Origin: an uncultured Bacteroidales bacterium
GTDB lineage: Bacteria; Bacteroidota; Bacteroidia; Bacteroidales; FEN-979
Direction of reading: 5' to 3'
NCBI GenBank assembly: GCA_903945175.1
Contig: CAJAUM010000114.1
Location: forward strand, 1 to 64,000
Length of the DNA: 64,000 nt
The position numbers and the translations under genes were made by a program. The notes beneath the pieces were generated by a model. The model was not told where the DNA came from, ran no database searches, and was given only the letters and a program-made list of their open reading frames with translations. Shown in pieces: positions 4,172 through 58,745 of the stretch (the first letter of the stretch is position 1; the number at the start of each line of letters is the position of its first letter).

Positions 4172-4206
4172 GTCATTGGTCATTCGTCATTGGTCATTCG
4201 TCATTT
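4172..4206. repeat. Heptamer array GTCATTS, five copies
   Basis: Five 7-bp units alternate GTCATTG/GTCATTC, the last being GTCATTT. Read with the genes (minus strand) the unit is GACGAAT or GACCAAT, and the array begins inside the stop codon of the TonB receptor (4205-4207). The same unit follows the hydrolase stop at 31779. Confidence 0.95.
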
Positions 4207-6553
4207 ACTTGATTGTCATTCTGATCCCTGCGTAAACCGAAATCCCGATTACGGGGCCCCAGGCCATAGAGGCATCGAAATGGGTATGCCAGGGCTTCCA
4301 GTATTCTGCAATTGGGTCCATCTGCCGGTAATTCGTAAGATTTTCCCCGCCCAGGTAAATATCGAAATATTTAAACTTCCTGGTGATCTGGCCAAGTAAA
4401 TTGAACCACACGGGTGAATTGGCCGGCCGCTGCAAAGCGACAGGCATTTTCTGCGTATCAGGCAGCCTTGCCGGACCATTCAGCTGACCGGTGAGATCAA
4501 ACTTCCATCTCTCGAACTTTGTTGCATAGGAAACAGTCACCAGTCCCTTATAGGCATTGACCATGGCCTTCTTCCTGAGCGTACCGCCCTCCGTAGTCTT
4601 TACGTCGTTGAGCCGGAACGCCGCTGTAATCGATAGCTGGTGAAGCGGTGAAAATATCAGTTGAGCCTGTACTACATTCGCATAGGATTTGCCATCCAGG
4701 TTATAAAAGAATACCGCGGTTGGGAGACTGTCCTGATCCACCACAACCTGTTTGACAAAACTCGTCCGGTAACCATCTACGCTAAACTCGGCTTTGTGAT
4801 CGAAGAGCATGAAATTCCAGGTAAGGTTCAGCCCATAGTTCCATGCTTCCTCATTTGAAAGGCCGGGAGCAAAAAACAGTGCACGCTGACTGATAAATAC
4901 AGCACTGTTTTCGGCCAGGAGATTGGGACTTCTATACCCTTTCCCAACCGAGCCGCGAACCGACAAATCTTTGGTCAGGTTCAGCCGGAGATGAAGCCTC
5001 GGGGTCAGAAAATATCCGAACTGGCTGTTATAATCTCCCCTTAAACCTGCGATCAGCGTAAACTTATCTTTCAAGTCGAAGGTATATTCAAAAAACGCAC
5101 CTCCTGCCCACTCCGACCGGTCCATGATGTAGGTAACCAGTGAATCACCCACCAGGGTAAACAGATCAGCATCGGTAGGTGATACGCTATCAGGCAAATA
5201 CTGATAACGGTATGCAAGCCGGGTCTGTAGAAAATTTTCAGAATAATCATCAATAAAGTAACTGAATCCTGCTGAGATCCTATGCTGATTTTCTTTAAAC
5301 TGGGAGGTGAAAATCAGGTTGGCATTGAGGTTTTGCTCATGTCCATGATAGGTATTGATTCCATAAAAACCATCCTGCTGATGGTTTATACCTGATACTA
5401 TGAGCCCAAGACTTGATTCGGCCCCATTATGAAACATGACTCCATTTTTCCAAAATGCCTCAATGCGATTGGTTTTCACACCAATCCCATACTGTTTGGC
5501 ATTGCTGGTAATGCCATTGGTGTCAAAGTTAAAACTATCCTTATCAAAATCCATTTGCCCGCCATTCCGGTCTTCATAAAGGTATTTGATGCCGAGCCTC
5601 GAAACCCATTTTCCTGCGACAATATAATCCCAGCGATTGAAGCCGGTGAGCGTAGTCACTTTAGGCATATCCATAAAGCCATCGCCATTCCGGTCAAACT
5701 TATAACGAAAATCAGCTGCGTGGATCAATAAGGATGTACTGAGTTTATCGTTGATTTTAATTGCTCCATCCGCATTGGCTTCAAACCGGAGGTTGCTGTT
5801 TCCAAAAAGATTTATAAACAGTTTTTCACTCGTTTCCGGCTTTTTATACTCCACATTGATCTGGCCTGTGATCGATTCATAACCCTGAACCACCGAAGAG
5901 GTACCCTTTGCCACCTGAATGGACTCCATCCACGATCCGGGGATGTAATTCAGGCCATAGGCCGTGGCCAATCCGCGGATCAAAGGGACATTCTCGGTCA
6001 TGATCTGGCTATAGACGCCTGACAATCCGAGGAGCTGGATTTGCCTTGCCCCGGTAACAGCATCGCTGTAAGAAACATCGACCGAGGCATTCGTCTCAAA
6101 ACTTTCGGCCAGGTTGCAGCAGGCCGCCCGCTGAAGCTCTCCGGTTGTTATCACCGTTGTCTGCCTGGCATTGAGCCTTGAAATGAAGGTATTGTCAGGC
6201 TTCCCGCTGATGGTGACTTCCGAAAGGTTTTGAACATCGGGAATAAGCACGATGTTCAGTTTGCTTTTATCAGATGATACGGAAATTGTATCTCCGCGAT
6301 AGCCCATCAGGCTTACCACAAGCCGGGATACTTGCACACCTGATCTGGTAAGTTTGAACCGCCCGTTTTTATCGGTGAAGGTACCGTTGGTGGTACCAAG
6401 CCAGAAAATATTCACCCCAGGCAACCCGATTTTTTTTCCATCGACAGCTTGTTCTGTGACCGTTCCCTGCACTGTTTGGGATTGTGCTCCCTGACCGGTC
6501 AGAACTCCTGCCAACGTAAATACATATGTAATTATCCAAAGAATTTTCATCAT
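4205..6553 (-). CDS. TonB-dependent receptor with carboxypeptidase-D-like domain (metal-associated type)
   Basis: An outer-membrane active transporter of 782 residues. It has a signal peptide (about 1-25), a CarboxypepD_reg-like beta-sandwich (about 28-105, with the usual LPGVNIFWLGTTNG and DKNGRF pattern), a plug domain (about 125-240), and a 22-strand-type barrel to the C-terminus. The plug carries a Cys-Cys pair at 145-146 within ELQRAACCNL. I recall this from a receptor subgroup of Bacteroidota found beside HMA proteins, but cannot verify it here. Flanking genes encode a Cys-rich small protein upstream and an HMA protein downstream, so metal or metallophore import is inferred. No SusD partner is present, arguing against glycan uptake. 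Confidence 0.88.
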   Translation of the reverse strand: MMKILWIITYVFTLAGVLTGQGAQSQTVQGTVTEQAVDGKKIGLPGVNIFWLGTTNGTFTDKNGRFKLTRSGVQVSRLVVSLMGYRGDTISVSSDKSKLNIVLIPDVQNLSEVTISGKPDNTFISRLNARQTTVITTGELQRAACCNLAESFETNASVDVSYSDAVTGARQIQLLGLSGVYSQIMTENVPLIRGLATAYGLNYIPGSWMESIQVAKGTSSVVQGYESITGQINVEYKKPETSEKLFINLFGNSNLRFEANADGAIKINDKLSTSLLIHAADFRYKFDRNGDGFMDMPKVTTLTGFNRWDYIVAGKWVSRLGIKYLYEDRNGGQMDFDKDSFNFDTNGITSNAKQYGIGVKTNRIEAFWKNGVMFHNGAESSLGLIVSGINHQQDGFYGINTYHGHEQNLNANLIFTSQFKENQHRISAGFSYFIDDYSENFLQTRLAYRYQYLPDSVSPTDADLFTLVGDSLVTYIMDRSEWAGGAFFEYTFDLKDKFTLIAGLRGDYNSQFGYFLTPRLHLRLNLTKDLSVRGSVGKGYRSPNLLAENSAVFISQRALFFAPGLSNEEAWNYGLNLTWNFMLFDHKAEFSVDGYRTSFVKQVVVDQDSLPTAVFFYNLDGKSYANVVQAQLIFSPLHQLSITAAFRLNDVKTTEGGTLRKKAMVNAYKGLVTVSYATKFERWKFDLTGQLNGPARLPDTQKMPVALQRPANSPVWFNLLGQITRKFKYFDIYLGGENLTNYRQMDPIAEYWKPWHTHFDASMAWGPVIGISVYAGIRMTIK

Positions 6554-6631
6554 CCGTTGCTTAAAAAATTAACTGATTGGAATCACAGGTCCAGCCGGGG
6601 AATGATAAAACAATGATCCGGGCAAGACAAT

Positions 6632-7123
6632 CTAAGCAATCGAAAGATGGGCAGGAATTTTGGCTTGATGAAGGAAATGGATCAACCTTTTTCCTGAAAG
6701 AGGGGGAGAATAAAACTGAAAAAAGCTGGCTGGTATTGAGATGTTCTCATTGACTGCTGGTTCTTCTAACGGAACTAAATATTGAGGCGTCAGGACTGAA
6801 ATCGATTTAATCACCAGCTTTTCAGTCAATTCAGAAGCAAATTCAAGTCTCAGAAAAGAATTTATGCTGATGCAGCATGGGGAAGCATCTATATTCATCG
6901 GTACCGAAGATGCTTCAGTACCTGTTTGATCGCGATAGGCATATTCGGCCTCTTCCTCTCCACAGCATGAAGAAACGGGAGCATTGAAAAGTCCCGGATA
7001 GACCGTCACATCCATGTTTTGGCTGCTGGTGCATATATGCTGAAGAAATGAGATTCCCATGGTACTGAAAAGGAAAACCATTAATAAAAGAATGACAGCT
7101 ATATGTTTAACTACTTTCATCAT
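6632..7123 (-). CDS. Small Cys-rich secreted protein, HYC_CC_PP-type
   Basis: A 163-residue protein with an N-terminal membrane or signal segment (about residues 5-25). After it come QHIC (H29, C31), SSCCGEEE (C53, C54), SPCC (C83, C84) and a YSPPLSG segment (P140, P141). This spacing matches the pattern after which NCBI names the HYC_CC_PP family of Bacteroidota, whose function is unknown. It is the first gene of the group with the TonB receptor and HMA protein. The paired cysteines suggest metal binding, which is inference. The ATG at 7123 lies just below a good -7 box. Confidence 0.7.
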   Translation of the reverse strand: MMKVVKHIAVILLLMVFLFSTMGISFLQHICTSSQNMDVTVYPGLFNAPVSSCCGEEEAEYAYRDQTGTEASSVPMNIDASPCCISINSFLRLEFASELTEKLVIKSISVLTPQYLVPLEEPAVNENISIPASFFQFYSPPLSGKRLIHFLHQAKIPAHLSIA

Positions 7124-7137
7124 GTTATTGGATCATG

Positions 7138-7145
7138 CAAAGTTA
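7138..7145 (-). promoter_or_regulatory. Putative -7 box for the metal-related operon
   Basis: On the minus strand this reads TAACTTTG, a full match to TAnnTTTG, 14 nt before the ATG of the HYC_CC_PP-type gene. The predicted leader is very short. Confidence 0.5.
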
Positions 7146-7190
7146 CCAAAATTACGGGTTCAGGAGACCTTCAGCGCAAAACAAATTCAG

Positions 7191-8225
7191 ATGGCGGAAT
7201 ATTTCTTATTAACTTGCATAAAAAAAGCCGTGAATAAAATTGGATGGCTCATAGTAATTTTGGCCACTATCCTGGTTTCTTGTAACCAAAATCAGGAAAT
7301 AAATGGATTGCATGTTCGATCCCAGGATTATTTAGGTCAGGTATTGCCGAATGAAAGGCCCAAGGTGTTTGCAGGGGGCATCATCTCAACGGGCATGTCG
7401 GAACGTGATATTTCTATCTCGCATGATGGGAACGAAATTTACTACAGTCTCTCTTCCGGCGACTGGTCAACCATCATGGTGGCCAGGCGGATCAATGGGA
7501 GCTGGTTCGATCCGGTGGTTGCTGAATTTGCCAGGGACACTACCCGTTTTTTCTCAGCGCCGAGTATCTCCCATGACGGGCTGCGCATTCTTTTTTCATC
7601 TTCAGAACGGGGAATGAGAAATCAGCAAATCTGGAAGGCTGAAAGGGAACCGGGCGGGACATGGGGAAAACCCTGTTTGCTTCCTCCGTCGATCAACACC
7701 ACACAGGACGAATTTTATCCCTCCCTTGCAAAAAACGGAAATCTATATTTTTCCAGGCGTGACACCCTGACAAAAAAAACCAGCATCTACTTTTCAAAGT
7801 GGGAGAATGGCGAATTTTCGTTACCGTTACCCTTACCTGCCCCTGTAAACGGGCCAGGGTTTATTTATAATGCCAGCATCGCGCCGGATGAAAGTTTTCT
7901 GGTCGCCTGTGCGGTTGGACGGGATTCGCTCAGCGCTTCAAAGGCCTCGACCTACATGCTTTTTTTTCACAATCCGGATGGGACCTGGAGTAAGGGCATC
8001 GACCTTGTGAAAACACTCCGGCTGCCTTGCAGGGAGGCCATCAGCATGTCGGTGAGTCCCAATGGCACCTATCTATTTTATGCAGCAGCCAATCGCACCC
8101 AGTCATACAAGGATTTTGCCCCCGGATGGGAATTATCCAACTTTCATCGCATCCGGAATCTGCAGGGCAACGGAAGTTCGGATATTTTCTGGTTCAACTT
8201 CAAAAAAGTGATGTTCCGCTTATAG
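7191..8225 (+). CDS. PD40/TolB-like beta-propeller lipoprotein
   Basis: A predicted lipoprotein of 344 residues. The hydrophobic segment IGWLIVILATILVSC ends in a lipobox whose cysteine is residue 31 from ATG 7191. The body contains repeated WD40-like PD40 strands, seen as ISISHDGNEIYYS, PSISHDGLRILFSS, PSLAKNGNLYFSR and ASIAPDESFLVAC. These usually form a propeller in the envelope. The frame extends back to 7059, but that start would overlap the divergent gene and its promoter. ATG 7191 or GTG 7230 (which puts the signal peptide at the extreme N-terminus) is more likely. Exact function is unknown. Confidence 0.75.
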   Translation: MAEYFLLTCIKKAVNKIGWLIVILATILVSCNQNQEINGLHVRSQDYLGQVLPNERPKVFAGGIISTGMSERDISISHDGNEIYYSLSSGDWSTIMVARRINGSWFDPVVAEFARDTTRFFSAPSISHDGLRILFSSSERGMRNQQIWKAEREPGGTWGKPCLLPPSINTTQDEFYPSLAKNGNLYFSRRDTLTKKTSIYFSKWENGEFSLPLPLPAPVNGPGFIYNASIAPDESFLVACAVGRDSLSASKASTYMLFFHNPDGTWSKGIDLVKTLRLPCREAISMSVSPNGTYLFYAAANRTQSYKDFAPGWELSNFHRIRNLQGNGSSDIFWFNFKKVMFRL

Positions 8226-8245
8226 CTGAACCTTGTCGAATCAGG

Positions 8246-9700: not shown

Positions 9701-9839
9701 GTGCGTAGTTTTTTGGTAAAGTTATAGAAATATTCCAGAAATAGTTCTGTATTGGCCTGGAAAAAAAACAATCAAAATTACCAATGTTACGATTTTGTTG
9801 TATATTCGCCTTGGTTATTCATCTTAATTTTAATGTATT

Positions 9840-10031
9840 ATGTCAAAAGGAAAAGTAAAATTCTTTAATGAAAGAAAAGGTTTTGGGTTCATCCTGGATG
9901 ATGAAAGCCAGCAAGACGTATTTGTTCATGTAAGTGGACTGATAGACAAAATTCGTGAAAATGACCAGGTTAGTTTCGATCTTACTGAAGACAACCGGGG
10001 GAAAAAGGCCATTAACGTTCGAAGAGACTAG
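9840..10031 (+). CDS. Cold-shock protein (CspA family)
   Basis: A 63-residue OB-fold RNA/DNA-binding chaperone. The RNP1 motif KGFGFI is at residues 13-18 and RNP2 DVFVHV at 26-31, both with the expected aromatics. Length is typical. The gene stands alone, with a hairpin terminator directly downstream and a long AT-rich upstream region where a structured leader could lie. No clear consensus promoter was found. Confidence 0.96.
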   Translation: MSKGKVKFFNERKGFGFILDDESQQDVFVHVSGLIDKIRENDQVSFDLTEDNRGKKAINVRRD

Positions 10032-10051
10032 ATCAATTTCATGGGCATTAA

Positions 10052-10086
10052 AAAAAAGAGCGACGCCACAAGCCTCGCTCTTTTTT
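10052..10086. terminator. Bidirectional intrinsic terminator
   Basis: The stem AAAAAAGAGCGA (10052-10063) pairs with TCGCTCTTTTTT (10075-10086) around an 11-nt loop. A-tract and T-tract flank the GC core, so it can end transcription of the cold-shock gene and of the opposing lipoprotein gene. Confidence 0.85.
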
Positions 10087-10135
10087 ATTGGGTCAATTAA
10101 TAAATACCTCCTGAATAATTGTGTTCCAGGATTGG

Positions 10136-10696: not shown

Positions 10697-10737
10697 GATA
10701 TTTAAATTTAAGTTAACACTAGATTGAAATCAAAAAA

Positions 10738-11862: not shown

Positions 11863-11888
11863 GGCAGTGTTTTTTTATGAAAATTGTT

Positions 11889-11919
11889 CAAATATACGAC
11901 TAATAATCTGTTCCGGCAA
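11889..11919 (-). promoter_or_regulatory. Putative promoter of dnaN
   Basis: On the minus strand, TTG (11917-11919) and TATATTTG (11889-11896) are separated by 20 nt. This matches the Bacteroidota -33/-7 arrangement. Confidence 0.55.
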
Positions 11920-11934
11920 TATTATTTATATTCA

Positions 11935-12585: not shown

Positions 12586-12644
12586 CTTTAAGAAAATTTG
12601 TTTATCACCCAATCAGGATGCAAAGTAAAATAAATTCCGGATAC

Positions 12645-18759: not shown

Positions 18760-18797
18760 TTTATAATTATTTTGGTGATTAGGTTAGTTTAACTTCA

Positions 18798-18869
18798 GGT
18801 AACAAGGTAACAAGGTAACAAGGTAACAGGGTAACAAGGTAACAAGGTAACAAGGTAACAGGGTAACAT
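18798..18869. repeat. Octamer array GGTAACAR, nine copies
   Basis: Nine 8-bp units GGTAACAN follow each other without interruption. The last base runs A A A G A A A G T, so the array has a 32-bp higher-order period. It starts 2 nt beyond the stop codon of the permease (18872-18874, minus strand) and lies in the tpiA leader. The same unit occurs at 35405. Confidence 0.97.
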
Positions 18870-18871
18870 TA

Positions 18872-19951
18872 TCAATGCAATCTGATCCTTGGATCAAGCA
18901 AACCATAGATGATGTCCACAAAAAAATTAATGACAATCAGGATGATGGAGATAAAGAGGACGGCACCCATCACCACCGGAAAATCATATTTTTCAAGTGC
19001 ATTTACGATCACCACCCCAATACCTTTCCAGTCGAACACAAATTCAACAAAGACTGCTCCTGCCAGAAGTGAAGCAAGCCATCCGGAGATGGCTGTGACT
19101 ACAGGGTTCAATGCATTTTTAAGGGCATGTTTCAGAATGATCCTGGATTTGCTTAATCCTTTTGCCCTTGCCGTTCTGATGTAATCCTGGGTCATCACCT
19201 CCAGCAGGGAATTTCGCGTAAGTTCAACAATAATGGCCAGCGGACGGATTCCGAGGGTGATGGCTGGAAGAATCAGGTTTTTGAGTTCAAGGAAGCTGCC
19301 TTGTCCAAAATCATCTACCCCATAAAGGCTGCCTGACATATTCAGTCCGGTGAACCGGACAAGCACAAATGCAAAGATCCACGCATTGAGAATGGCTACG
19401 AAAAATGAGGGCAATGACATTCCAAGCACAGAAAAAACAAGGGAGAGGCGGTCGATGAGACTGTTCTTGTAGATGGCACATACAATGCCGACAGCTATTC
19501 CGATCACGATGGCGAAGGCCATGGCAACACATGCCAAAATGATCGTATTCACAAAACCTTCAGCCAGGATTTCTGACACATTCCTCTTTGACTGATACGA
19601 CCGGCGGAGGTAGGGCTCCTTCAGAACAAGCGCAGAACTTCCGAAAGAGATGATTTTCAGGGTTTTGTCATATTTGGCCGGATCAAGAAACCAAAAATTC
19701 TCAGCATCTTTAACATTGTGAAGTGAAAGTGGTGAAAGATCATTCAGATAATTTAAAAACTGGATTGTCAATGGTTTGTCACGGCCCAGATCTTTATTTA
19801 TGGCCTCCACTGAAGCATTATCTGCGCGCTGCCCAAGCATCATACGTGCCGGATCTCCCGGCAGGACATTGAAAAGCAGGAAAACCACCATGATAACCCC
19901 GAAAAGGACAAGAATACCGTACCAGAATCGTTTTAGAATGAATTGGCCCAT
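18872..19951 (-). CDS. ABC transporter permease, DppB/OppB family (orphan)
   Basis: An inner-membrane permease of the peptide/nickel importer type, 359 residues. It has the family's N-terminal segment FGVIMVVFLLFNVLPGDPARMMLG. A large periplasmic loop of about 100 residues follows, then five further membrane segments. The cytoplasmic coupling motif is in the EVMTQDYIRTARAKGLSKSR region (EAA loop). The C-terminus DPRIRLH is typical. No DppC, ATPase or binding protein is encoded nearby, so partners must lie elsewhere. It sits between the BT_3928 gene and tpiA on one strand. Confidence 0.88.
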   Translation of the reverse strand: MGQFILKRFWYGILVLFGVIMVVFLLFNVLPGDPARMMLGQRADNASVEAINKDLGRDKPLTIQFLNYLNDLSPLSLHNVKDAENFWFLDPAKYDKTLKIISFGSSALVLKEPYLRRSYQSKRNVSEILAEGFVNTIILACVAMAFAIVIGIAVGIVCAIYKNSLIDRLSLVFSVLGMSLPSFFVAILNAWIFAFVLVRFTGLNMSGSLYGVDDFGQGSFLELKNLILPAITLGIRPLAIIVELTRNSLLEVMTQDYIRTARAKGLSKSRIILKHALKNALNPVVTAISGWLASLLAGAVFVEFVFDWKGIGVVIVNALEKYDFPVVMGAVLFISIILIVINFFVDIIYGLLDPRIRLH

Positions 19952-19968: not shown

Positions 19969-21078
19969 TTACTTCGACATGTACTTCTGCCTGATTTCAT
20001 CGTATGCCGGAAAATCGCGGAATCCCCATTTAGCAAGTACGATGCCATCTTTCAAAAGAATGAGTCCGGGGTTGGAACGGACCATGGTTTTAAGCACCAC
20101 ATCATCGGCGAGGTAATAGTCAAATGCAGTTCCATGGGCCATTCTGAATTGTTTGATTTCACCGGGAAAGGAATTGGTGAGGCAGATGAAGGAATATCCA
20201 TCCTGCGTGGCTTTTTTATACAGCGGGAGGATCCTGTGAAAACCATCCTGGTCAGTCATGCCAAGGTTATAGGCCACTAAAACAAACTGAAAATCAGGAT
20301 TATTCAAAATGCTGGATGTAAAATCAATTCCATGCTGATCTTCTGCACGCAGCACCAACCCCTGATTTTTATTCGGATCAACCACGCGCTGGCTTTTAAA
20401 GATCCAGTTGGCCAGCCATACAGAATCATTCCATGGGTAATTCGGCGAGATAAACTCCTTTTCCTCCCCGGTCAGTTTGTTTTTATAGGTAACGTGAAAT
20501 GTTACCGGCCATGTTTCGGTCCTATTAACACGATTACCCACCTTCCATGCCATAAAATCGATTATCGGCAGGTGCCGGTAGCAATAAATTGACAAGGCGG
20601 AGAAGGCAACCGCAGAAATAAACAACATGGTAAAATCACCCCACGATGGTAAAAGGCTTTTAAATTTCTTCCGCCAGATAAAAATGGGAACTACAAAACC
20701 CATCAGAATAACATTTTTGATGAATGTTTGTATATTGGTAATTTTCAATGCCTCCCCAAAACATCCACAATCGGGGACCAGGTTGTAAACCGCATCGAAA
20801 AATGTAAGTATTGTAAAGTAAATCATCATGAGCAATAAAATCCAAGCCATTTTACGGATCCAAAAATTGAACAGGAGGCTCACGCCGATTAAAAATTCAA
20901 GTGCACATAAAAATATAGTCAGGTAGAGGCTGAACGGGATGAACCAGGGAATGTTAAAGGCAAGAAAGTAATCCTCCATCCTGTAAACGGTTCCCAATGG
21001 ATCAATTCCCTTCACAAAACCTGAGTAAACAAATACAAGTCCAACGAGGATGCGGAAAAAAGTTCTTAAAATTCTCAT
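19969..21078 (-). CDS. BT_3928-type MauE/DoxX membrane protein with thioredoxin-like domain
   Basis: A 369-residue protein. The N-terminal half has four membrane segments of the DoxX/MauE type, including VYSGFVKGIDPLGT and the cysteine motif DCGCFGEA (C104, C106). The C-terminal half (about 190-369) resembles a thioredoxin-fold domain (FVLVAYNLGMTDQDGF; LLKDGIVLAKWGF) but has no CXXC pair. The architecture matches what is called the BT_3928 family. A redox or disulfide-related membrane role is inferred from MauE. It is divergent from folP, a gene order I associate with this family in Bacteroidales. Confidence 0.8.
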   Translation of the reverse strand: MRILRTFFRILVGLVFVYSGFVKGIDPLGTVYRMEDYFLAFNIPWFIPFSLYLTIFLCALEFLIGVSLLFNFWIRKMAWILLLMMIYFTILTFFDAVYNLVPDCGCFGEALKITNIQTFIKNVILMGFVVPIFIWRKKFKSLLPSWGDFTMLFISAVAFSALSIYCYRHLPIIDFMAWKVGNRVNRTETWPVTFHVTYKNKLTGEEKEFISPNYPWNDSVWLANWIFKSQRVVDPNKNQGLVLRAEDQHGIDFTSSILNNPDFQFVLVAYNLGMTDQDGFHRILPLYKKATQDGYSFICLTNSFPGEIKQFRMAHGTAFDYYLADDVVLKTMVRSNPGLILLKDGIVLAKWGFRDFPAYDEIRQKYMSK

Positions 21079-21131
21079 ACTCCTTTGAATATTTCTGAGG
21101 CTAAAATTAACAATTTTCTGGGTTTTGGTCG

Positions 21132-21139
21132 TACTTTTG
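21132..21139 (+). promoter_or_regulatory. Putative -7 box for folP
   Basis: TACTTTTG matches TAnnTTTG and lies 20 nt before ATG 21160. It supports 21160 over the upstream ATG 21085, which would place the promoter inside the gene. Confidence 0.45.
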
Positions 21140-21159
21140 GCACCGTTTTTAATAAAGAA

Positions 21160-21984
21160 ATGAACAAACTTTTTTGTAACACCAAAGAATTGGATCTATC
21201 CATCCCTCAGGTGATGGGGATTTTGAATATCACGCCCGATTCGTTTTTCGATGGAGGGAGATATGAGGCCTGCGATGCACAGTTGCACCAGGCAGAAAAG
21301 ATGTTGAATGATGGAGCAGCGATTATCGATATTGGAGCGGTGTCAACCCGTCCAGGAGCTCCGGAAGTGAGTGAAGTCCTGGAAATTGAACGACTGCTTC
21401 CGCCACTGAAATCCATACGCAACCATTTTCCCGGATGTTTAATTTCTGTTGATACATACCGGCCTGCGGTAGCCAAAGCAGCAGTTGATGAAGGAGCTGA
21501 TATCATTAATGACATCTATGGCGGCCGTTTTGAAACAGGTATGTTTGAAACCATTGCTTCACTCAAGGTGCCGTACATCCTGATGCATATGAAAGGAACC
21601 CCACAAACCATGCAGCAGGAACCAGAATACAACAATGTCGTCATGGAGGTCAGCTATTTTTTTGAGCAGAGAATTGCCCTATGCCGGGAGAAAGGGATCC
21701 GGCAGGTGCTGATTGACCCTGGTTTTGGTTTCGGAAAAACAGCCGACCATAATTTCGCACTGCTGTCGCACCTGGACGCGTTAAAATCAATGGGATATCC
21801 CATTGTTGCAGGCCTTTCACGTAAATCGATGATCACCCGTGTGCTGAAAATCAATCCGGAAAACGCTAAAAACGGCACAACCGTATTGAATACCATTGCA
21901 TTGATAAAAGGGGCCGACATCCTGCGGGTGCATGATGTGAAGGAGGCCATGGAAGCGATCAGGCTGGTGCAAATGGTCAGTTAG
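21160..21984 (+). CDS. folP: Dihydropteroate synthase
   Basis: A cytosolic folate-pathway enzyme joining p-aminobenzoate to the pterin pyrophosphate, and the target of sulfonamides. The 274-residue TIM barrel shows MGILNITPDSFFDGG, DIGAVSTRPGA, ISVDTYRP, DIINDIYGG and LIDPGFGFGK, the standard pterin and pABA loops. Start 21160 is chosen because the extra residues from ATG 21085 are not family-like and cover the putative promoter. It precedes dacA with a repeat-filled spacer. Confidence 0.96.
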   Translation: MNKLFCNTKELDLSIPQVMGILNITPDSFFDGGRYEACDAQLHQAEKMLNDGAAIIDIGAVSTRPGAPEVSEVLEIERLLPPLKSIRNHFPGCLISVDTYRPAVAKAAVDEGADIINDIYGGRFETGMFETIASLKVPYILMHMKGTPQTMQQEPEYNNVVMEVSYFFEQRIALCREKGIRQVLIDPGFGFGKTADHNFALLSHLDALKSMGYPIVAGLSRKSMITRVLKINPENAKNGTTVLNTIALIKGADILRVHDVKEAMEAIRLVQMVS

Positions 21985-22003: not shown

Positions 22004-22010
22004 GAAAAAC

Positions 22011-22057
22011 GTGACGCAGGAAGCGTGACGCGTGACGCGTGACGCAAAAAACGTGAC
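22011..22057. repeat. Heptamer array GCGTGAC, interrupted
   Basis: GTGACGC at 22011, then three perfect GCGTGAC units (22023-22043), then GTGAC at 22053. Copies of the same unit occur at 36310 and, with the same orientation relative to the genes, at 58718. Confidence 0.92.
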
Positions 22058-30286: not shown

Positions 30287-30344
30287 TCAAATGCCGGAAT
30301 AAATGCTTAAGCTGCTCAACTGGTTCAACCAAACACATATCAAG

Positions 30345-31781
30345 ATGAAAAAAAATCATACTGTCTTTTTGATTTTCCAGTTTATCGTGCTGGCTCTTTT
30401 ATTGCAAACATCAGTTCTTGCACAGGATCGCTTAAAAAACCTTCCCGGGGCGTGGGCCGGGACCTTAACGTTTCAGGGTATCGAACTCCGGCTGGTCATG
30501 AACGTTTCGTTCAATGAAGGTGATAGTATGATTGTCACGTTCGACAGCCCTGATCAGGGCGCAAAGGATATTCCTACCAGCAAAGTCATCCTCAGGGAGG
30601 ACTCCATTCTTGTTTCATCAAAAATAATCGGCGGAAAATTCAGCGGCAAAATCAATGCAGATTACAGCGCGATGGCCGGAACCTGGTGGCAGGGAGGAAA
30701 AACCTTTCCACTGAATATGGTTAAGCAGGAAAAACCGGTCGCCCTCCATCGTCCACAGGAGCCAAAACCTCCCTATCCTTACCGTTCACAGGAGATTACC
30801 TTTAAAAACACAACTGGTGGCTTTGAACTTGCCGGCACCCTCACCCTACCCGAAAAAGTTGGCCGCCACCCTGCTGTCATCCTGATCACAGGTTCAGGCC
30901 CACAAAACCGGGATGAAGAATTGCTTGGGCATAAGCCTTTTTTGGTAATCTCCGATTATCTGACCAGACAGGGAATTGCAGTTCTCCGGTATGATGATCG
31001 CGGAATTGCCAAATCGGGCGGAGTATTCAAAACAGCCACTACGCTCGACTTTGCGACAGATGCCGAATCGGCCCTTGATTTTTTAAAGCATCAACCGGAA
31101 ATTGATACGAACATGATCGGGTTCATAGGCCATAGCGAAGGGGGAATTATTGCACCCATCGTCGCTTCCCGCCGGCCAGATGTGGCTTTCATTATTCTGA
31201 TGGCTGGCCCCGGGCTTACCGGAGCGCAAATCGTGCTGTTGCAGTCAGAACTCATCAGCAAAGCAGAGGGGATGGATGAAAAAAGCATCAAATCCAATGG
31301 AAAATTGAACAGAGACATCTTTTCAGCGCTGAAGAAAAATCAGGACAATGCCAGGGCTGAAAAAAAAATCAGGGCCTTGTTTGATGCTGCTGATAAAAAA
31401 AATGCATCCGATACCGGTTATCAAAAACTGACGGATCAGGAAGTAGCCTCTCAAATAGAGAATGTTACCTCACCCTGGTTTCGTTGTTTTCTAACGCTCA
31501 ATCCGGAAGTATACCTTTCTCAGGTAAGATGCCCGTTGTTGGCCATCAACGGTAGTCTTGACCTGCAGGTTCCTCCTAAAGAGAACCTTCAAGCCATCGA
31601 AAAAGCGCTGATTTTTGGCGGGAACTCCCATTATCTGATCGAAGAACTTCCGGGATTAAACCATCTTTTCCAGACAGCCACAACCGGAAGCCCTACCGAA
31701 TATGCAAAAATCGAGGAGACCATTTCACCGGCAGCCCTTGACGTTATGGGAAACTGGATACGAGGGACGAGGGACGAATGA
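30345..31781 (+). CDS. Secreted alpha/beta hydrolase
   Basis: A 478-residue exported serine hydrolase. The signal peptide covers about residues 1-26 from ATG 30345; a start at 30303 would add 14 residues before it. A beta-rich N-terminal domain (to about 150) precedes the hydrolase fold. That has the oxyanion region LITGSGPQNRDEE, nucleophile motif GFIGHSEGG, acidic residue in INGSLDLQVPP and histidine in LPGLNHLFQ. The architecture resembles Bacteroidota esterases or acyl-aminoacyl peptidase-like enzymes of unknown substrate. The last codons (RGTRDE) are encoded by GACGAAT-type repeat units. Confidence 0.88.
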   Translation: MKKNHTVFLIFQFIVLALLLQTSVLAQDRLKNLPGAWAGTLTFQGIELRLVMNVSFNEGDSMIVTFDSPDQGAKDIPTSKVILREDSILVSSKIIGGKFSGKINADYSAMAGTWWQGGKTFPLNMVKQEKPVALHRPQEPKPPYPYRSQEITFKNTTGGFELAGTLTLPEKVGRHPAVILITGSGPQNRDEELLGHKPFLVISDYLTRQGIAVLRYDDRGIAKSGGVFKTATTLDFATDAESALDFLKHQPEIDTNMIGFIGHSEGGIIAPIVASRRPDVAFIILMAGPGLTGAQIVLLQSELISKAEGMDEKSIKSNGKLNRDIFSALKKNQDNARAEKKIRALFDAADKKNASDTGYQKLTDQEVASQIENVTSPWFRCFLTLNPEVYLSQVRCPLLAINGSLDLQVPPKENLQAIEKALIFGGNSHYLIEELPGLNHLFQTATTGSPTEYAKIEETISPAALDVMGNWIRGTRDE

Positions 31782-31793
31782 CGAATGACGAAT
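31766..31793. repeat. Heptamer array GACGAAT, four copies, overlapping a stop codon
   Basis: GACGAGG then three perfect GACGAAT units. The hydrolase stop codon TGA (31779-31781) lies inside the array. The unit is the same as that at 4172 when read in the direction of the upstream gene. Confidence 0.93.
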
Positions 31794-34050: not shown

Positions 34051-35400
34051 ATGGAAAAATCTATTGAGGCCATTTCACCGGTCGACGGCCGGTATCGACC
34101 CGTTACTGAGCCGCTGGCATCCTACTTTTCCGAAGGTGCCATTATCCGTTACAGGATCCTGGTTGAGGTGGAATATTTCATTGCCATCTGCAAAATTCCA
34201 CTGCCTCAGCTGAAAGGTTTTGATAAAAAAATGTTTCAGAAACTCCGGCATCTCTATGAGAAATTTGATCCGGGAGATGCACTTCGTGTCAAGGAAATTG
34301 AACAGGTTACGAACCATGATGTCAAGGCGATTGAGTACTATTTAAAAGAGCAGTTTGATATACTCGGACTGGGTGCATTTAAGGAATTCATTCATTTCGG
34401 ACTTACCTCACAGGACATTAACAACACTGCTTTTCCACTGGCGATGCGCGATGCATACCGCGATCTCGTGGAGCCTGCGATTGAAAACATCTATGGAGAG
34501 GTGCTCGCACATTCAAAAGAATGGCAGCAAATACCGATGCTGGCACGTACCCATGGACAGCCTGCTTCACCAACAACGGTCGGCAAAGAGCTTTATGTAT
34601 TTGCTGAAAGGCTAGGAATGCAGCTTGCGTTGATTGAAACCATTCCCCAATCTGCAAAATTCGGTGGAGCTACCGGAAACTTCAATGCGCACCACGTAGC
34701 CTATCCCTCCATTGACTGGGTCAAGTTTGCCAATAAATTTGTCAATGAGACCCTTGGGCTGGAGCGCTGCCAGACAACCACACAGATTGAGCATTACGAC
34801 AACATGGCTGCCTTTTTTGATAATCTTAAGCGGATCAATACCATCCTCATTGACCTCGACCGTGATCTCTGGACCTACATTTCGATGGATTATTTCAAAC
34901 AAAAGGTCAAGACAAGTGAAACCGGATCATCCACCATGCCGCATAAAGTCAATCCCATTGATTTTGAAAATTCTGAAGGGAATCTGGGGATCGCAAATGC
35001 ACTTTTTGAACATTTTTCGGCAAAACTTCCCATCTCCCGGATGCAGCGAGACCTCACCGATTCAACAGTGATCAGGAACATCGGTGTTCCCCTGGCCCAT
35101 TCATTGATCGCCTACAAATCACTTTTAAAAGGTATAAGCAAGCTGATTTTAAATGAGACAAAACTCAAAGCCGACCTGGAGGAAAACTGGGCTGTTGTTA
35201 CTGAAGCCATCCAGACCATCCTTCGACGCGAAGGCTATCCCAATCCCTATGAATCGCTCAAGGATCTTACACGAGGACAGGGAGCGATAACAAAGATTTC
35301 TATCCACAAATTTATCGATGCATTGAAAGTTTCTAAAAAGGTAAAGGATGAACTGAAGGCGATCACACCGTTAAACTATATCGGGGTGATTGATTTTTAG
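34051..35400 (+). CDS. purB: Adenylosuccinate lyase
   Basis: A purine-pathway enzyme that releases fumarate from SAICAR and adenylosuccinate. The 449-residue protein of the fumarase/aspartase superfamily has the signature loop GSSTMPHKVNPIDFENSEGN (the mobile catalytic Ser is near residue 293). TSQDINNTAFPLAMRD and ARTHGQPASPTTVGKE are the other conserved segments. The N-terminal SPVDGRY start is typical. An octamer repeat begins 4 nt after its stop. Confidence 0.97.
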   Translation: MEKSIEAISPVDGRYRPVTEPLASYFSEGAIIRYRILVEVEYFIAICKIPLPQLKGFDKKMFQKLRHLYEKFDPGDALRVKEIEQVTNHDVKAIEYYLKEQFDILGLGAFKEFIHFGLTSQDINNTAFPLAMRDAYRDLVEPAIENIYGEVLAHSKEWQQIPMLARTHGQPASPTTVGKELYVFAERLGMQLALIETIPQSAKFGGATGNFNAHHVAYPSIDWVKFANKFVNETLGLERCQTTTQIEHYDNMAAFFDNLKRINTILIDLDRDLWTYISMDYFKQKVKTSETGSSTMPHKVNPIDFENSEGNLGIANALFEHFSAKLPISRMQRDLTDSTVIRNIGVPLAHSLIAYKSLLKGISKLILNETKLKADLEENWAVVTEAIQTILRREGYPNPYESLKDLTRGQGAITKISIHKFIDALKVSKKVKDELKAITPLNYIGVIDF

Positions 35401-35404: not shown

Positions 35405-35436
35405 GGTAACAGGGTAACAGGGTAACAGGGTAATGA
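35405..35436. repeat. Octamer array GGTAACAG, three copies plus a degenerate fourth
   Basis: Three perfect GGTAACAG units at 35405-35428 are followed by GGTAATGA (35429-35436), whose ATG is the start codon of the next gene. The unit is the same as the 72-bp array at 18798. Confidence 0.95.
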
Positions 35437-36305
35437 AGGTTTCAGGGTTTACTTTTGTACGCAATGCCATTAAATTCGACTATCCCGTTGTAGAATCGAT
35501 CAGGTCGGTTTTGCCTCTATGCGACGAATTTATTGTTGCTGTTGGGAACTCTGAAGATGAAACCCGGAACCTCGTCCGCTCCATTGGAGACCCTAAGATC
35601 AAGATTATTGACACCATCTGGGATGACACCCTGCGAGAAGGCGGACAGGTACTGGCGCTTGAAACGGACAAGGCATTTGATGCCATTGCCAATGACAGCA
35701 CCTGGGCCTTTTACATTCAGGCGGATGAGGTGGTTCATGAGAAGTACCTGCCCGAAATAAAGGCAGCAATGAAAAAGTGGGAATATGAGCCAAAAGTGGA
35801 GGGTCTGGTGTTCAATTACACCCATTTCTGGGGATCCTATCAATATACCGGAGACTCCCGTCAATGGTATCGTCGCGAGGTGAGGGTCATTCGCAATGAC
35901 AAGCAGATCAGATCCTATCTGGATGCACAGGGCTTCAGGAAAAACGGGAAAAAGTTATTGGTTGCACCTGTTGACGTCTGTATCTATCACTATGGATGGG
36001 TGAAACCACCCCAGGCCCAGCAAGCCAAGCAGCAAACATTTCACCGCTATTGGCATACTGACAAGTGGATCGAAAAAACGACATCTAAGTCTGAGGTTTA
36101 TGACTATTCAGGTATAGATTTTCTTTCACATTTCACCTCAACGCATCCCCGGGTGATGGTTGAAAGAATTACAAACCAGCACTGGGAATTCAATCCACGC
36201 CAATCAAAAAGCAGACATTCATTTATTTCAGCCATCCTTCATTGTATTGAAAAAAAAACGGGTTGGAGGATTGGAGAATACAGGAATTACAGGATTTGGA
36301 GGTAA
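35433..36305 (+). CDS. Glycosyltransferase, GT2-like
   Basis: A 290-residue GT-A type protein. The N-terminus VSGFTFVRNAIKFDYPVVESIRSVLP, then EFIVAVGNSEDET, resembles GT2 nucleotide-binding strands. FYIQADEVVHEKY carries the acidic metal-binding position (xDE instead of DxD). There are no membrane segments. It lacks neighbouring LPS genes, so the acceptor is unknown. The start codon lies within the tail of a repeat array. Confidence 0.78.
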   Translation: MKVSGFTFVRNAIKFDYPVVESIRSVLPLCDEFIVAVGNSEDETRNLVRSIGDPKIKIIDTIWDDTLREGGQVLALETDKAFDAIANDSTWAFYIQADEVVHEKYLPEIKAAMKKWEYEPKVEGLVFNYTHFWGSYQYTGDSRQWYRREVRVIRNDKQIRSYLDAQGFRKNGKKLLVAPVDVCIYHYGWVKPPQAQQAKQQTFHRYWHTDKWIEKTTSKSEVYDYSGIDFLSHFTSTHPRVMVERITNQHWEFNPRQSKSRHSFISAILHCIEKKTGWRIGEYRNYRIWR

Positions 36306-36309
36306 AATC

Positions 36310-36337
36310 GTGACGCGTGACGCGTAATGCGTGACAA
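36310..36337. repeat. Heptamer array GTGACGC, four copies
   Basis: GTGACGC, GTGACGC, GTAATGC and GTGACAA, beginning 4 nt after the stop of the glycosyltransferase. It is a cyclic permutation of the GCGTGAC unit at 22023 and 58718. The next promoter box follows 18 nt later. Confidence 0.9.
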
Positions 36338-45362: not shown

Positions 45363-45399
45363 TGTTTAACGTACTTTTAAACGGTAAAAGCAATCCGAT

Positions 45400-46275: not shown

Positions 46276-46278
46276 TTT

Positions 46279-47772: not shown

Positions 47773-47786
47773 TCTAAATAAATTGG

Positions 47787-47821
47787 GCAATAGGCAATAG
47801 GCAATAGGCAATAGGCATTGG
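47787..47821. repeat. Heptamer array GCAATAG, four copies plus a degenerate fifth
   Basis: Four perfect GCAATAG units (47787-47814) then GCATTGG (47815-47821). The array abuts the guaA stop codon at 47822-47824 (minus strand) and fills the leader of the LysM gene. In the direction of transcription the unit reads CTATTGC. Confidence 0.95.
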
Positions 47822-49351
47822 TCACTCCCACTCAATTGTAGCCGGCGGCTTTGAACTGATATCATAAACCACCCTGTTAACTCCCTTTACCTTATTGATG
47901 ATATCGTTACTCACCTTGGCCAGAAATTCATAAGGAAGATGTGCCCAATCAGCCGTCATGCCATCGGTGGATGTTACAGCCCGCAAGGCGATCACATTTT
48001 CATACGTCCGCTCATCCCCCATCACACCTACAGATTGCACCGGCAATAAAACTGCAAATGCCTGCCAAACAGTATGATATAAACCATGTGAATGCAATCC
48101 GGAGATAAAAACGTCATCAACCTCCTGGAGCAGACTCACCTTTTCACGGTCGATGTCACTGAGGATGCGCACAGCCAGTCCAGGACCCGGAAATGGATGG
48201 CGGTCAATAAACCCGGAATCCAGTCCCAGGGTTTTTCCTACTTTTCGAACCTCATCCTTGAACAGGCTGTTTAAAGGTTCGACAATCTTCAATTTCATAT
48301 AATCGGGCAACCCGCCCACATTGTGATGTGATTTGATGGTAGCCGATGGTCCCTTCACAGAATGGGATTCGATTACATCAGGGTATATCGTTCCCTGAGC
48401 CAGCCATTTGATATTCTGGATTTTATGTGCCTCAATATCAAACACATCAATAAAGGTCTTTCCAATGATTTTTCGCTTTTGTTCAGGATCAATGACCCCT
48501 TGGAGTGCATCCAGGAAAAGATCGCGGGCATCGACGCCCACTACATTCAAATCCAGCGTTTTATAGCGTTCCAGCACCTGATTGAATTCATTTTTCCTGA
48601 GTAACCCATTGTCAACAAATATGCAGTAGAGTTGTTTACCAATGGCCTTATTGAGCAACATGGCCGTAACCGACGAATCAACCCCGCCCGAAAGGCCAAG
48701 CACCACCTTGTCATCTCCCAGCTTATGCTTTAAGGCTGCAACGGTGGTCTCTACAAACGATTCAGGAGTCCACGTTTGATGGCATCCGCAGATATCCACC
48801 ACGAAATTTTTCAAAAGTTTTAATCCTTCTGTAGTGTGGTAAACTTCAGGGTGAAACTGAATTCCATAAGATTGTTCACCGGTAATTTGATATCCGGCGA
48901 ATTGCACGTCGGAGGTGCTTGCTATCACTTTAAACTGTTCCGGGATGGTTAAAATGGTATCGGCATGTGACATCCATACTTGCGTACCAGGCGTCATCCC
49001 TCTTAAAAGTTCGTTTTTTTCATCAATAAAGGCCAGATTGGCCCGGCCATATTCACGGATTTTTGAGGGAGCCACCATGCCTCCTGAAGTTTGGGCCAAA
49101 TACTGCGCACCATAGCACACACCAAGCAAAGGGATCTCTCCCCTGACGTGTGTAAGATCAGGGAATGGAGCATCTTTATCTCTTACAGAATATGGACTGC
49201 CTGACAGGATCACCCCCTTGAAATGGGTATCTGGCGACGGAAATTTATTAAAAGGATGAATTTCACAATACACATTCAATTCGCGCACCCTGCGTGCAAT
49301 GAGTTGGGTGTACTGGGAACCGAAATCCAGAATCAGAATGGTTTCTTGCAT
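47822..49351 (-). CDS. guaA: GMP synthase (glutamine-hydrolysing)
   Basis: This enzyme converts XMP to GMP using glutamine and ATP. The 509 residues hold a class I amidotransferase domain (nucleophile C79 in [13 protein letters not shown]; His/Glu in [11 protein letters not shown]). A PP-loop ATP pyrophosphatase domain ([15 protein letters not shown]) and a C-terminal dimerisation domain ending PPATIEWE follow. It is complete. A consensus promoter lies just upstream, and the transcript may be nearly leaderless. Confidence 0.97.
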
Positions 49352-49355
49352 GGGA

Positions 49356-51103: not shown

Positions 51104-51105
51104 GT

Positions 51106-56420: not shown

Positions 56421-56426
56421 GCAAAT

Positions 56427-57260
56427 TTAATTTACGTGTGTGTAGTGCTGCATCAAATCCTCCTTCTCCTTTTCGTTCACACGGAGCACATTGGAAATCA
56501 GCCAACCTGAATTTACACTGTTGCGATTAAAATAGGAGACTTCGAAGTACCAATTCGGAACCTGGAATATGTGAAATTTGACATTGTTTACTGCAACAAA
56601 GTCAAGGTTCCCGTTTTTCATCTCCATTACAAAAAGGGCAGTCATATCCGGTACATAATCACGTTCCAGATAAAAATCCAGGTTCTCCGTTTCTTTGAAA
56701 GCCTTATGAAGGTTCATAAAATCGAGTTCGTGGCTCATCGGGTGTATGAAATACTTCAGGTTGGAGGTATCGCTAAGGTGTGTAAACCAGGATTCAAAAC
56801 GGTCGAAATAGACATTTGAAATCACCCATTTGTATCCGTTCGACTGCTTCTCGATTTTCAGGTAAAGAATCAGGTTCACCTTCTCCTTCTTATAGGTAAA
56901 GGTCGCTGTAACTTCAGCAAACCAACCCTTTGCATAAAAATCAAGAAAAGCGGGATTCTTTTTGTTCAGCGCATCATCAATAAAAACAAATTTTACATCA
57001 GAACCGATCACAGCACTTGAATTATCAAAAAGGATATTCAGGTAGCTCTTCCTGGCCTTGAGATCACGGTAACCCTGATTGCCCGGATAAAAACGTTTGC
57101 CCTGAATATCCTCCTCCCCGTTGAACCGAAGAAAAAATTGATTTACCTGCTTGGTCTGAGCGTAAAATATTGATTCGTCACCGGTCAGCGATCCGATCGA
57201 ACCCTGTGAAAATCCCATTATCGGCAACCACAATAGAACAATCCATGTGAATTTTCTCAT
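56427..57260 (-). CDS. Hypothetical secreted protein (277 aa)
   Basis: It has a signal peptide (about 1-19, IVLLWLPIMGFSQG) and then an alpha/beta domain with many aromatics (VNQFFLRFNGEEDIQGKRF; SVNSGWLISNVLRVNE). A phrase of the form YKWVISNVYFDRFESWF recurs twice in similar form (WLISNV). There are no cysteines and no catalytic motif I know. It lies between the 192-residue gene and the LRR gene with gaps of 15 and 6 nt, so all are probably cotranscribed. Confidence 0.7.
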   Translation of the reverse strand: MRKFTWIVLLWLPIMGFSQGSIGSLTGDESIFYAQTKQVNQFFLRFNGEEDIQGKRFYPGNQGYRDLKARKSYLNILFDNSSAVIGSDVKFVFIDDALNKKNPAFLDFYAKGWFAEVTATFTYKKEKVNLILYLKIEKQSNGYKWVISNVYFDRFESWFTHLSDTSNLKYFIHPMSHELDFMNLHKAFKETENLDFYLERDYVPDMTALFVMEMKNGNLDFVAVNNVKFHIFQVPNWYFEVSYFNRNSVNSGWLISNVLRVNEKEKEDLMQHYTHVN

Positions 57261-57275
57261 AGATGAGGCTGGTAA

Positions 57276-57854
57276 TTACTTTGAGGTTTCCTTCACCCTG
57301 ATATCTCCCAGCATCACATCCCAGAAACCAATGAGGCGTCCACCAATCTGAGTCTCTTTGCGCTTGACATATACCGTGATATCTTTTTTAGTGGTATCTT
57401 CATAAACCAGTCCCTTTTCCTTGTCATATGCCTGGAAACGCTGATATATGGTAATTACCCCAACATAGGTTCCATCGGGTTGCCTTACGAGATCACTCAC
57501 ATACTGGATCTTGTACCAGTCGATGGTCACCTTGTCGTAATTCAGTTGCATCAGGCGGTCAAAATATTCCCTGATCTTGTAGTAGTTTACATCCTGTTTG
57601 CCAAGCGAAGAAACACCTATTTCACTGTTTTCCATGAACAATTCAACAGCGCGTTCAATGACCCGCTGTGCATCCGACCATGGGGTCTTTTTATCTCCGA
57701 TTATGCTGATATATTTACTCAGGTCGCGAACCTTCTCTAGGGCGAGACTGTCGATGGCCTGTTTGCGCTGGGGCGAAAGATTATCCTGTGCGGCCACCCG
57801 GTTCGACACCGCGAACAGGCATGCCATTATGATCAATGAAAGAAGCTTTCTCAT
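57276..57854 (-). CDS. Hypothetical secreted protein (192 aa), related to the LRR protein's N-terminal domain
   Basis: It has a signal peptide (about 1-22, ending NRVAAQ) and a single domain. By eye its central part (SKYISIIGDKKTPWSDAQRVI; WYKIQYVSDLVRQPDGTYVGVITIYQRFQAY) lines up with residues 88-215 of the LRR protein (SLNFLGDKRNSVNEKQQII; QYAIQEVSVEADQQGLTYFKVTA). The order of conserved positions is the same. This suggests a domain duplicated inside the operon. Function unknown. Confidence 0.7.
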   Translation of the reverse strand: MRKLLSLIIMACLFAVSNRVAAQDNLSPQRKQAIDSLALEKVRDLSKYISIIGDKKTPWSDAQRVIERAVELFMENSEIGVSSLGKQDVNYYKIREYFDRLMQLNYDKVTIDWYKIQYVSDLVRQPDGTYVGVITIYQRFQAYDKEKGLVYEDTTKKDITVYVKRKETQIGGRLIGFWDVMLGDIRVKETSK

Positions 57855-57859
57855 AGTCG

Positions 57860-58678
57860 TTATTTTTTAATTAAATCGAGTCCTTTGATTTTTCCATTTG
57901 CATCATTCATGATGGCATCAATGGCATTCCTATTCGCCTTCGTATCCCTGATTAAATTAAGATACCTTTTGATGGTTGTAGGCTTGTCGTAATCCACCAT
58001 GGAGCCTTCACGACTAATGATGATCAGCACCGGAACATCCTCTGATGAAAAGAGCTGAAGGGTCTTTTGGATCGTTGCATCTGCCTGACTCAGATTTCCG
58101 GCACTGGCTGCACTGGCAATGGCAGCAAAGGAATTCTCCAGTTGTGCTTTAACGGGTAAACTACCTGCTGCGCCAAAGGTTCGCATATCCTTAATTTTTT
58201 TCTCCAGACGGGCAATCAGCTCGTCGAGTTCACTGTCCTGAAGATTTTGCGCCTTAATTGCATTTAATTCCCGTTCAAGCTGGTCTGCAGTTTTTTCATC
58301 CTTATTCAACAACAAATCATACAAGGCAGCTCGGGCCACATCCACTTTTTGAGCTTTAATTTTTTGCTCATTGGCCAATGCTGTTTTAAGCTTTTGCTGA
58401 GCTTCAATGATCATCTCATTCAGAATGGGATCATTGTAATTTTTATCCATGATCTCTGCTACGACTCGTTTTTGCTCATCGTACGAAAGTGTGGAGGTTC
58501 CATTGATGATCGACTGCAATTGCTTTTTTGCATTTTCGATTTGCGCCTTCCGTTCTTTTTTCGACAATTTGCCAGTCGACTTACAACCTTCCGTTCCTGC
58601 AACAACCAGTGCCATCATCATGATGATGACGAGATGCTGCCAGCGGATCGCTTTGATTTTGCTTATTATTTCTGACAT
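57860..58678 (-). CDS. Hypothetical coiled-coil lipoprotein
   Basis: 272 residues. A charged start and hydrophobic LVIIMMMALVVAGTEGC give a lipoprotein signal (Cys at 32). The next 130 residues are strongly helical and Lys/Gln/Glu-rich (KKERKAQIENAKKQLQSII; EQKIKAQKVDVARAALYDLL), a likely coiled coil. A compact C-terminal part contains VPVLIIISREGSMVDYDKP. It is the first gene of the four-gene secreted cluster. A composite repeat region separates it from gcvT. Confidence 0.7.
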   Translation of the reverse strand: MSEIISKIKAIRWQHLVIIMMMALVVAGTEGCKSTGKLSKKERKAQIENAKKQLQSIINGTSTLSYDEQKRVVAEIMDKNYNDPILNEMIIEAQQKLKTALANEQKIKAQKVDVARAALYDLLLNKDEKTADQLERELNAIKAQNLQDSELDELIARLEKKIKDMRTFGAAGSLPVKAQLENSFAAIASAASAGNLSQADATIQKTLQLFSSEDVPVLIIISREGSMVDYDKPTTIKRYLNLIRDTKANRNAIDAIMNDANGKIKGLDLIKK

Positions 58679-58686
58679 ACTTTTAA

Positions 58687-58745
58687 GATTTACGATTTAT
58701 GATTTATGATTTTTTTTGTCACGCGTCACACGTCACGTGTCACGT
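58687..58745. repeat. Composite heptamer arrays GATTTAY and GTCACGY
   Basis: GATTTAC, GATTTAT, GATTTAT (58687-58707) then GATTTT, followed by GTCACGC, GTCACAC, GTCACGT, GTCACGT (58718-58745). On the gene strand these read ACGTGAC/GCGTGAC, then AAATCATAAATC. The array starts 8 nt after the gcvT stop. Confidence 0.93.

Follow-up and report, generated by a model that had tools for sequence, protein, structure and literature searches.

Intergenic arrays of 7- and 8-bp units, often found behind stop codons, in a Bacteroidales genome and its relatives

Short tandem arrays recur at the gene junctions of a 64-kb stretch of DNA from an uncultured Bacteroidales bacterium of the FEN-979 lineage (assembly GCA_903945175.1, contig CAJAUM010000114.1, positions 1 to 64,000; hereafter the window), and several systems resembling them have been described in bacteria. 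Heptamer arrays with the units GGGAATC and GGGGA(C/T)T, present in Xanthomonas and Nostoc, lie next to stop codons or overlap them and are found between the same genes in related species, their function being given as unknown in the accessible part of the report (PMC4692102). Arrays of the heptamer TAACTGA were found in Beggiatoaceae, some Cyanobacteria and five Bacteroidetes, and the accessible sections of their description present a single dispersed unit, in places mixed with other heptamers, which in the main genome lies mostly just before start codons, overlaps gene ends only slightly in the stop-bearing orientation, and is missing from the shorter, repeat-free spacers of the close relatives compared (PMC4679880). 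In the same sections, Mrazek et al. 2007 are cited for long simple sequence repeats with units of 5-11 nt, among which heptamers are the commonest and for which slippage was proposed. Furthermore, short satellite families occur in prokaryotes, with a transposition mechanism suggested in some (PMC6749651), and heptanucleotide and octanucleotide elements were described in Geobacter metallireducens (PMC2700814), in both cases as far as the accessible parts of these sources extend.

The arrays studied here consist of DNA added to spacers, they leave gene ends in place, their periods are restricted, they recur at the same junctions in different species, and they share units. We consider them to be, rather probably, intergenic minisatellites with units of 7 or 8 bp that expand and disperse, being tolerated for the most part where they directly follow coding sequences. 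Stop adjacency, seen here in 31 of 44 codirectional arrays, is the likeness to the Xanthomonas and Nostoc arrays, and stop-proximal heptamer arrays as such have thus already been described; according to the accessible part of that report, those arrays are built from a single G-rich, quadruplex-forming unit, whereas here there are many families of 7- and 8-mers, octamers are common, and a quadruplex motif occurs in 18 of 212 arrays of four genomes, for which reason a quadruplex role was rejected. Placement is also unlike that described for TAACTGA in Beggiatoaceae, since only 12 of the same 44 arrays lie within 10 nt of the next start codon, and TAACTGA is not among the 23 canonical units of our 464-kb sample, the whole genome not having been searched for it. 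With units within 5-11 nt and lengths beyond chance, the arrays belong among the long simple sequence repeats, with which they share unit size; this is a statistical class, however, and the account cited in the accessible sections is silent on shared vocabularies and orthologous turnover. The satellite families of PMC6749651 and PMC2700814 likewise consist of short tandem units spread over many loci within a species, but they have other units and belong to other lineages, and stop-codon placement is not mentioned in the accessible parts of either source. REP-type palindromic elements differ in having a hairpin-forming unit and a Y1 transposase, neither of which characterizes the arrays here. 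The literature searched, mostly without subscription papers, holds no account of the unit vocabulary of this family, and what is new is the multitude of unit families, their position-limited variation and their turnover at the level of single junctions.

Arrays were counted if their period was 6-10 and their copy number roughly three or higher (threshold 2.75). The sample of 464 kb comprised the window and five further contigs (400 kb) of the same genome, labelled G000, which were chosen from a list of contigs with GGTAACAR matches, so that the sample is not random and its array density is biased upward. Window arrays were located with Tandem Repeats Finder (TRF), and stop distances were taken from TRF edges and our own gene calls, made with a simple self-written caller that misses genes below about 50 codons and gives approximate starts. 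Congeners were represented by one genome per species. The window holds 10 arrays, as many as were found in total in fifty second-order Markov shuffles of 64 kb, and the whole sample holds 69, compared with one in 1.39 Mb of shuffled sequence. Of these, 39 have period 7 and 28 period 8, with one each of periods 6 and 9; when any period was permitted, 7 and 8 still prevailed, together with multiples such as 14, 16, 21, 24 and 32. Heptamers are the commonest class in G000 and in the congener G018 (43 heptamer and 19 octamer arrays), while in the congener G003 the order is reversed (24 octamer and 19 heptamer arrays). In regard to context, 44 arrays are codirectional, 7 convergent and 3 divergent, 14 lie inside called genes and one at an edge. 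Contig C15 (loci L083-L086) carries 37.5 arrays per 100 kb, compared with 7.0-15.6 on the other sampled contigs, and has arrays also inside called genes; it may be an exceptional region or stem from another strain in the bin. Long arrays were also seen at or near contig starts (G000:C73:6-165, G014:C337:6-90, G008:C235:17-199), as if breaking short-read assembly, so that real array numbers may be higher.

An enrichment of arrays within 10 nt of stop codons had been set beforehand as the test of the original prediction, and such an enrichment was found. Compared with random positions in the same gaps (2000 replicates), the 31 of 44 codirectional arrays of G000 that lie at most 10 nt from a stop or overlap it exceed the 16.6 expected, with no replicate as high, and the share is 23 of 29 when contig C15 is left out. 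In congeners the preference is weaker, with 18 of 55 in G018 (11.3 expected, 16 of 2000 replicates), 12 of 30 in G003 (6.5 expected, 7 of 2000) and a non-significant 6 of 16 in G017 (3.9 expected, 230 of 2000), and arrays also occur in 5′ leaders and divergent gaps; stop proximity is thus strong in G000 and less pronounced among its relatives. Around 80 purB loci, mostly from Bacteroidota, 62 arrays were found in 838 kb, and a stop excess was not clear there (8 of 29 codirectional arrays, 4.9 expected, 66 of 2000 replicates). TCGTAAA, where it stands 1-10 nt before start codons (37 sources), is in sense in 16 cases and antisense in 2, perhaps because an A-rich leader is tolerated.

The comparison of orthologous junctions, taken from purB and dppB-like neighbourhoods and from longer congener stretches with both flanking orthologues adjacent, shows that arrays come in addition to an otherwise kept spacer. 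For 53 array-bearing cells, two or more array-free orthologues were available. The median spacer of these cells is 117 nt; after subtraction of the arrays it is 67 nt, compared with 68.5 nt in the array-free orthologous spacers. The array-bearing spacer exceeds the array-free median in 45 of the 53 cells (Wilcoxon 2.8e-8), and the residual is not clearly different from the array-free length (0.088 over the 53 cells). Gene ends are kept: in 34 of the 37 stop-proximal cases, the protein terminates no more than 3 residues from the median of its array-free orthologues. Among 34 junctions represented by at least four species (257 cells), 61 cells carry arrays and 196 do not, and the arrays are clustered in certain junctions (statistic 32.8, compared with 25.3 when the null is weighted by spacer length, 0 of 2000 replicates), with 16 of the 34 never array-bearing where 9.4 would be expected (1 of 2000 replicates). 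The junction behind gene 35433-36305 has arrays in 6 of 11 species and that behind gene 58754-59842 in 4 of 4, such recurrence being seen in independent assemblies, while two junctions with nearly wholly conserved spacers of about 60-70 nt have them in 0 of 13 and 0 of 14 species. Units at one junction are partly inherited and mostly turned over: in same-junction species pairs they are near-identical in 24 of 92 (0.261), compared with 0.105 when permuted within species.

Units vary within limits. A (C/G)GTNA core is present in 55 of the 67 period-7 and period-8 arrays of G000 (8.8 in shuffled units), in 10 of 21 distinct G000 units (2.5 shuffled), and in 25 of 62, 15 of 43 and 13 of 22 arrays of three congeners (5.8, 4.5 and 2.4 shuffled), although these counts are not independent, as the units are related by descent. 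In the GGTRACAR family, with 198 units at 21 loci (16 of these loci on C15), positions 2, 3, 5 and 7 are 98-99% constant, and positions 4 and 8 are split between A and G. In the CGTCATT family, with 124 units from 19 loci, variation falls mainly on positions 1, 4 and 6. Variants are intermixed within single arrays. Two copies of GGTAACAR were matched at 172 positions in G000, the first 100 among the matches listed being spread over 17 contigs, with none for the reversed-pattern control, and three copies of GTCATTS at 167. The vocabulary is common to one family and hardly occurs in the remainder of the order. GGTAACAR doublets were matched in 7 of 61 genomes: in 6 of the 19 from the genus, in 1 of 18 from other members of the family and in none of 24 from the order. 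Among 90 genomes, divided into 19, 24 and 47 at these three levels, ATTTACG triplets occur in 26 (12, 14 and 0), GCGTGAC triplets in 13 (9, 3 and 1) and GTCATTS triplets in 17 (11, 5 and 1). Reversed controls across genomes gave zero for ATTTACG and GCGTGAC, and matches in one genome each for GGTAACAR (3) and GTCATTS (8). Abundance differs strongly by species, ATTTACG triplets having 338 positions in G001 and 4 in G000, and together with the reach of the units this indicates a vocabulary old within the family and amplified species by species. The original prediction that period and position are more constrained than sequence is therefore borne out in the prevalence of periods 7 and 8 with their multiples and in the return of mostly different units to the same junctions, but sequence is by no means free, given the core and the family-wide vocabulary.

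According to the explanation we favour, replication slippage or unequal exchange would expand and contract the units, variants would be copied from locus to locus, and purifying selection would purge arrays falling in coding sequence or in the start signals of the next gene. As a consequence, surviving arrays would mostly occupy the space from a stop codon to the following gene, and could extend as far as the final dispensable codons or a little way into them. Since many units carry TGA or TAA, an array entering a gene end would itself supply an in-register stop. The higher-order periods fit expansion, and mere tolerance, not selection in their favour, most likely accounts for the persistence of the arrays; the original remark that no function is known to have been described for them still holds.

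Several observations weigh against this explanation. When the null was kept at least 20 nt away from the start, a stop excess was still left in all four genomes (20 of 28 compared with 10.0, 14 of 37 with 7.6, 9 of 19 with 2.2, and 5 of 9 with 1.4), so avoidance of start signals cannot account for everything. Divergent gaps are array-poor in G000 (3 in 39 gaps) but are not depleted in G018 (8 in 32) or G003 (7 in 16). The motif TAnnTTTG, which we take to be promoter-like, shows no clear restriction to sequence lying downstream of arrays, with 14 occurrences in 12135 bp before and 22 in 12076 bp after them. Slippage alone, moreover, leaves the presence of one unit at many unlinked loci unexplained.

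It is also conceivable, though unlikely, that a dedicated mechanism of copying or transposition carries 7-8 bp units to new junctions, where the stop codon would often be the seed through TGA/TAA microhomology. The numerous positions of GGTAACAR and GTCATTS repeats in G000 speak for such a process, as does the variation of the GGTRACAR and CGTCATT families at the same few positions over many loci. Likewise, two units are more often identical when both come from G000 (0.095 of pairs, C15 excluded) than when one is from G000 and the other from one of three congeners (0.008-0.028). Register points in the same direction: of 131 array-stop pairs at most 30 nt apart, 77 have a sense unit containing a stop codon, and in 38 of these the gene stop is in register with the array (10.6 expected). 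For arrays 1-10 nt behind the stop the count is 15 of 32 (4.4 expected), and at 11-30 nt it is 1 of 11 (1.5 expected). Part of this excess is automatic, as a frame entering a stop-bearing array ends there. Register may also come about if a degenerate first unit escapes TRF, so that an array in fact overlapping the gene end seems to lie behind it. Neither a carrier sequence nor fixed ends were found in the flanks of the arrays inspected. Flanks had suggested a composite mobile element with the ordered blocks GGTRACAR, AGTAATGG, an A-run and a 7-mer block (order by eye); the sole joining text searched occurs three times, always on C15, and in 0 of 18 congeners, so that the composite is local. 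As spreaders, a Y1 (RAYT-type) transposase and a reverse transcriptase were both rejected, since neither is present in every array-bearing genome: the former, found in 14 of 19 genomes of the genus, has no PF01797 match in G000, and no reverse transcriptase match was obtained in G011 and G013, both array-bearing. Inverted array pairs were set aside as a pattern because they are too few, 11 of 66 pairs within one junction sharing a unit family, 9 inverted and 2 direct.

A broader form of the same idea, which we hold to be doubtful as well, is that active satellite dispersal in the family draws on a common, drifting set of units with the (C/G)GTNA core and writes or copies 7-8 bp arrays from it, preferentially onto the ends of coding sequences and often in register with the stop, and refills the same junctions as species diverge.

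Improbable, in turn, is a function in RNA or protein synthesis, by which arrays behind genes would be selected as three-frame stops, spacers or binding sites. A period of 7 or 8 shifts the reading frame with each unit, and in G000 a stop codon is present on either unit strand in 64 of 67 arrays, compared with 42.1 in shuffled units; such enrichment is not seen in G018, G003 or G017. In four genomes, units within 10 nt of a stop or overlapping it have the stop codon in sense only in 41 cases and antisense only in 14, and the widespread core and the strand preference of TCGTAAA before starts could likewise be taken as signs of function. However, the strand bias is strong only in arrays overlapping the gene end (34 sense-only, 7 antisense-only) and falls short of significance in those lying 1-10 nt away (29 and 19, p 0.19), as expected if an open reading frame simply ends at its first in-frame stop, and all-frame stops were rejected as a selected function because the definition of a reading frame alone produces such a bias. 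Most orthologous junctions, furthermore, are array-free. RNA folding of 135 codirectional arrays in sense revealed no general excess over shuffles (median z 0.27, mean -0.32, with z below -2 in 22), and a hairpin or terminator role was rejected on this ground. Finally, an artefact of random repetition, of misplaced gene ends or of faulty assembly of the bin, to which the draft state of the genome (155 contigs), arrays at some contig ends such as C73:6-165, the array-rich C15 and the simple gene caller could point, is very improbable and already largely refuted by the nearly array-free shuffles, the agreement of gene ends with orthologues and the recurrence of arrays in independent assemblies.

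The arrays of the window, with coordinates, strand, unit and position, are the following:
4120-4153, no strand assigned: TTGAAAAT, 4.2 copies (alternatively a 16-mer, 1.9 copies), directly before the start of gene 3754-4116 (-).
4168-4205, minus strand: ATTCGTC/ATTGGTC (sense GACGAAT/GACCAAT), 5.4 copies, overlapping by 1 nt (distance -1) the stop of gene 4205-6553 (-).
18797-18868, plus strand: AGGTAACA, 9.0 copies, antisense, 3 nt behind the stop of gene 18872-19951 (-).
22010-22045, as a 14-mer to 22057, plus strand: CGTGACG, 5.1 copies, 25 nt behind the stop of gene 21085-21984 (+).
31760-31793, plus strand: ACGAGGG, then GACGAAT, 3.0 copies, between convergent genes; with the TRF edges 31773-31793 the distance is -9, the stop TGA of gene 30303-31781 (+) lying inside the array.
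35405-35433, plus strand: GGTAACAG, 3.6 copies, 4 nt behind the stop of purB 34051-35400 (+) and reaching the start codon of the next gene.
36309-36335, plus strand: CGTGACG, 3.9 copies, 3 nt behind the stop of gene 35433-36305 (+).
47786-47817, no strand assigned: GGCAATA, 4.6 copies, 4 nt behind the stop of gene 47822-49351 (-).
58682-58712, no strand assigned: TTTATGA/TTTACGA, 4.4 copies, before the start of gene 57860-58678 (-).
58718-58744, minus strand: GTCACGC (sense GCGTGAC), 3.9 copies, 9 nt behind the stop of gene 58754-59842 (-).

All eight arrays of the original prediction were recovered, together with a few further ones, among them that at 4120-4153, which had not been listed. Seven of the eight had been placed 0-8 nt from the upstream stop or over it, and seven indeed lie within 9 nt of it or overlap it, the array at 22010 being 25 nt away; our gene calls also agree that seven stand between codirectional genes and the one at 31766 between convergent ones, and the recurrence of GACGAAT, GCGTGAC and GGTAACAR across loci is correct. 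What had been taken for a single array at 58687-58745 is made of two, with different units (TTTATGA and GTCACGC). Arrays overlapping a gene end encode the last residues of the protein, as at 31773, where the first units of the 31760-31793 array supply those of the protein of 30303-31781, while the protein of 18872-19951 has the same C-terminus as in 14 of 14 array-free orthologues. At the junction between 18872-19951 and 19969-21078, orthologues in G008, G018, G012 and G003 have inverted pairs across the spacer, with TTTACGA behind the stop and TCGTAAA before the next start.

If the favoured explanation is right, a family of some twenty closely related species offers a natural experiment on the origin, spread and turnover of short satellites, which also bears on the high frequency of period 7 among bacteria. 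Function could be tested directly, since orthologous spacers exist both with and without arrays. A warning follows for sequence data, as array spacers interrupt assemblies made from short reads and change the final residues of annotated proteins.

In regard to the neighbouring genes, the purB relatives and a SusC-like receptor point to Bacteroidota. The PurB protein (34051-35400) is at most 70% identical to named records, and it is 64-68% identical to three Deltaproteobacteria-labelled records (L003, L006, L010), as close as to Bacteroidota records, which could reflect transfer between phyla or mislabelled bins.

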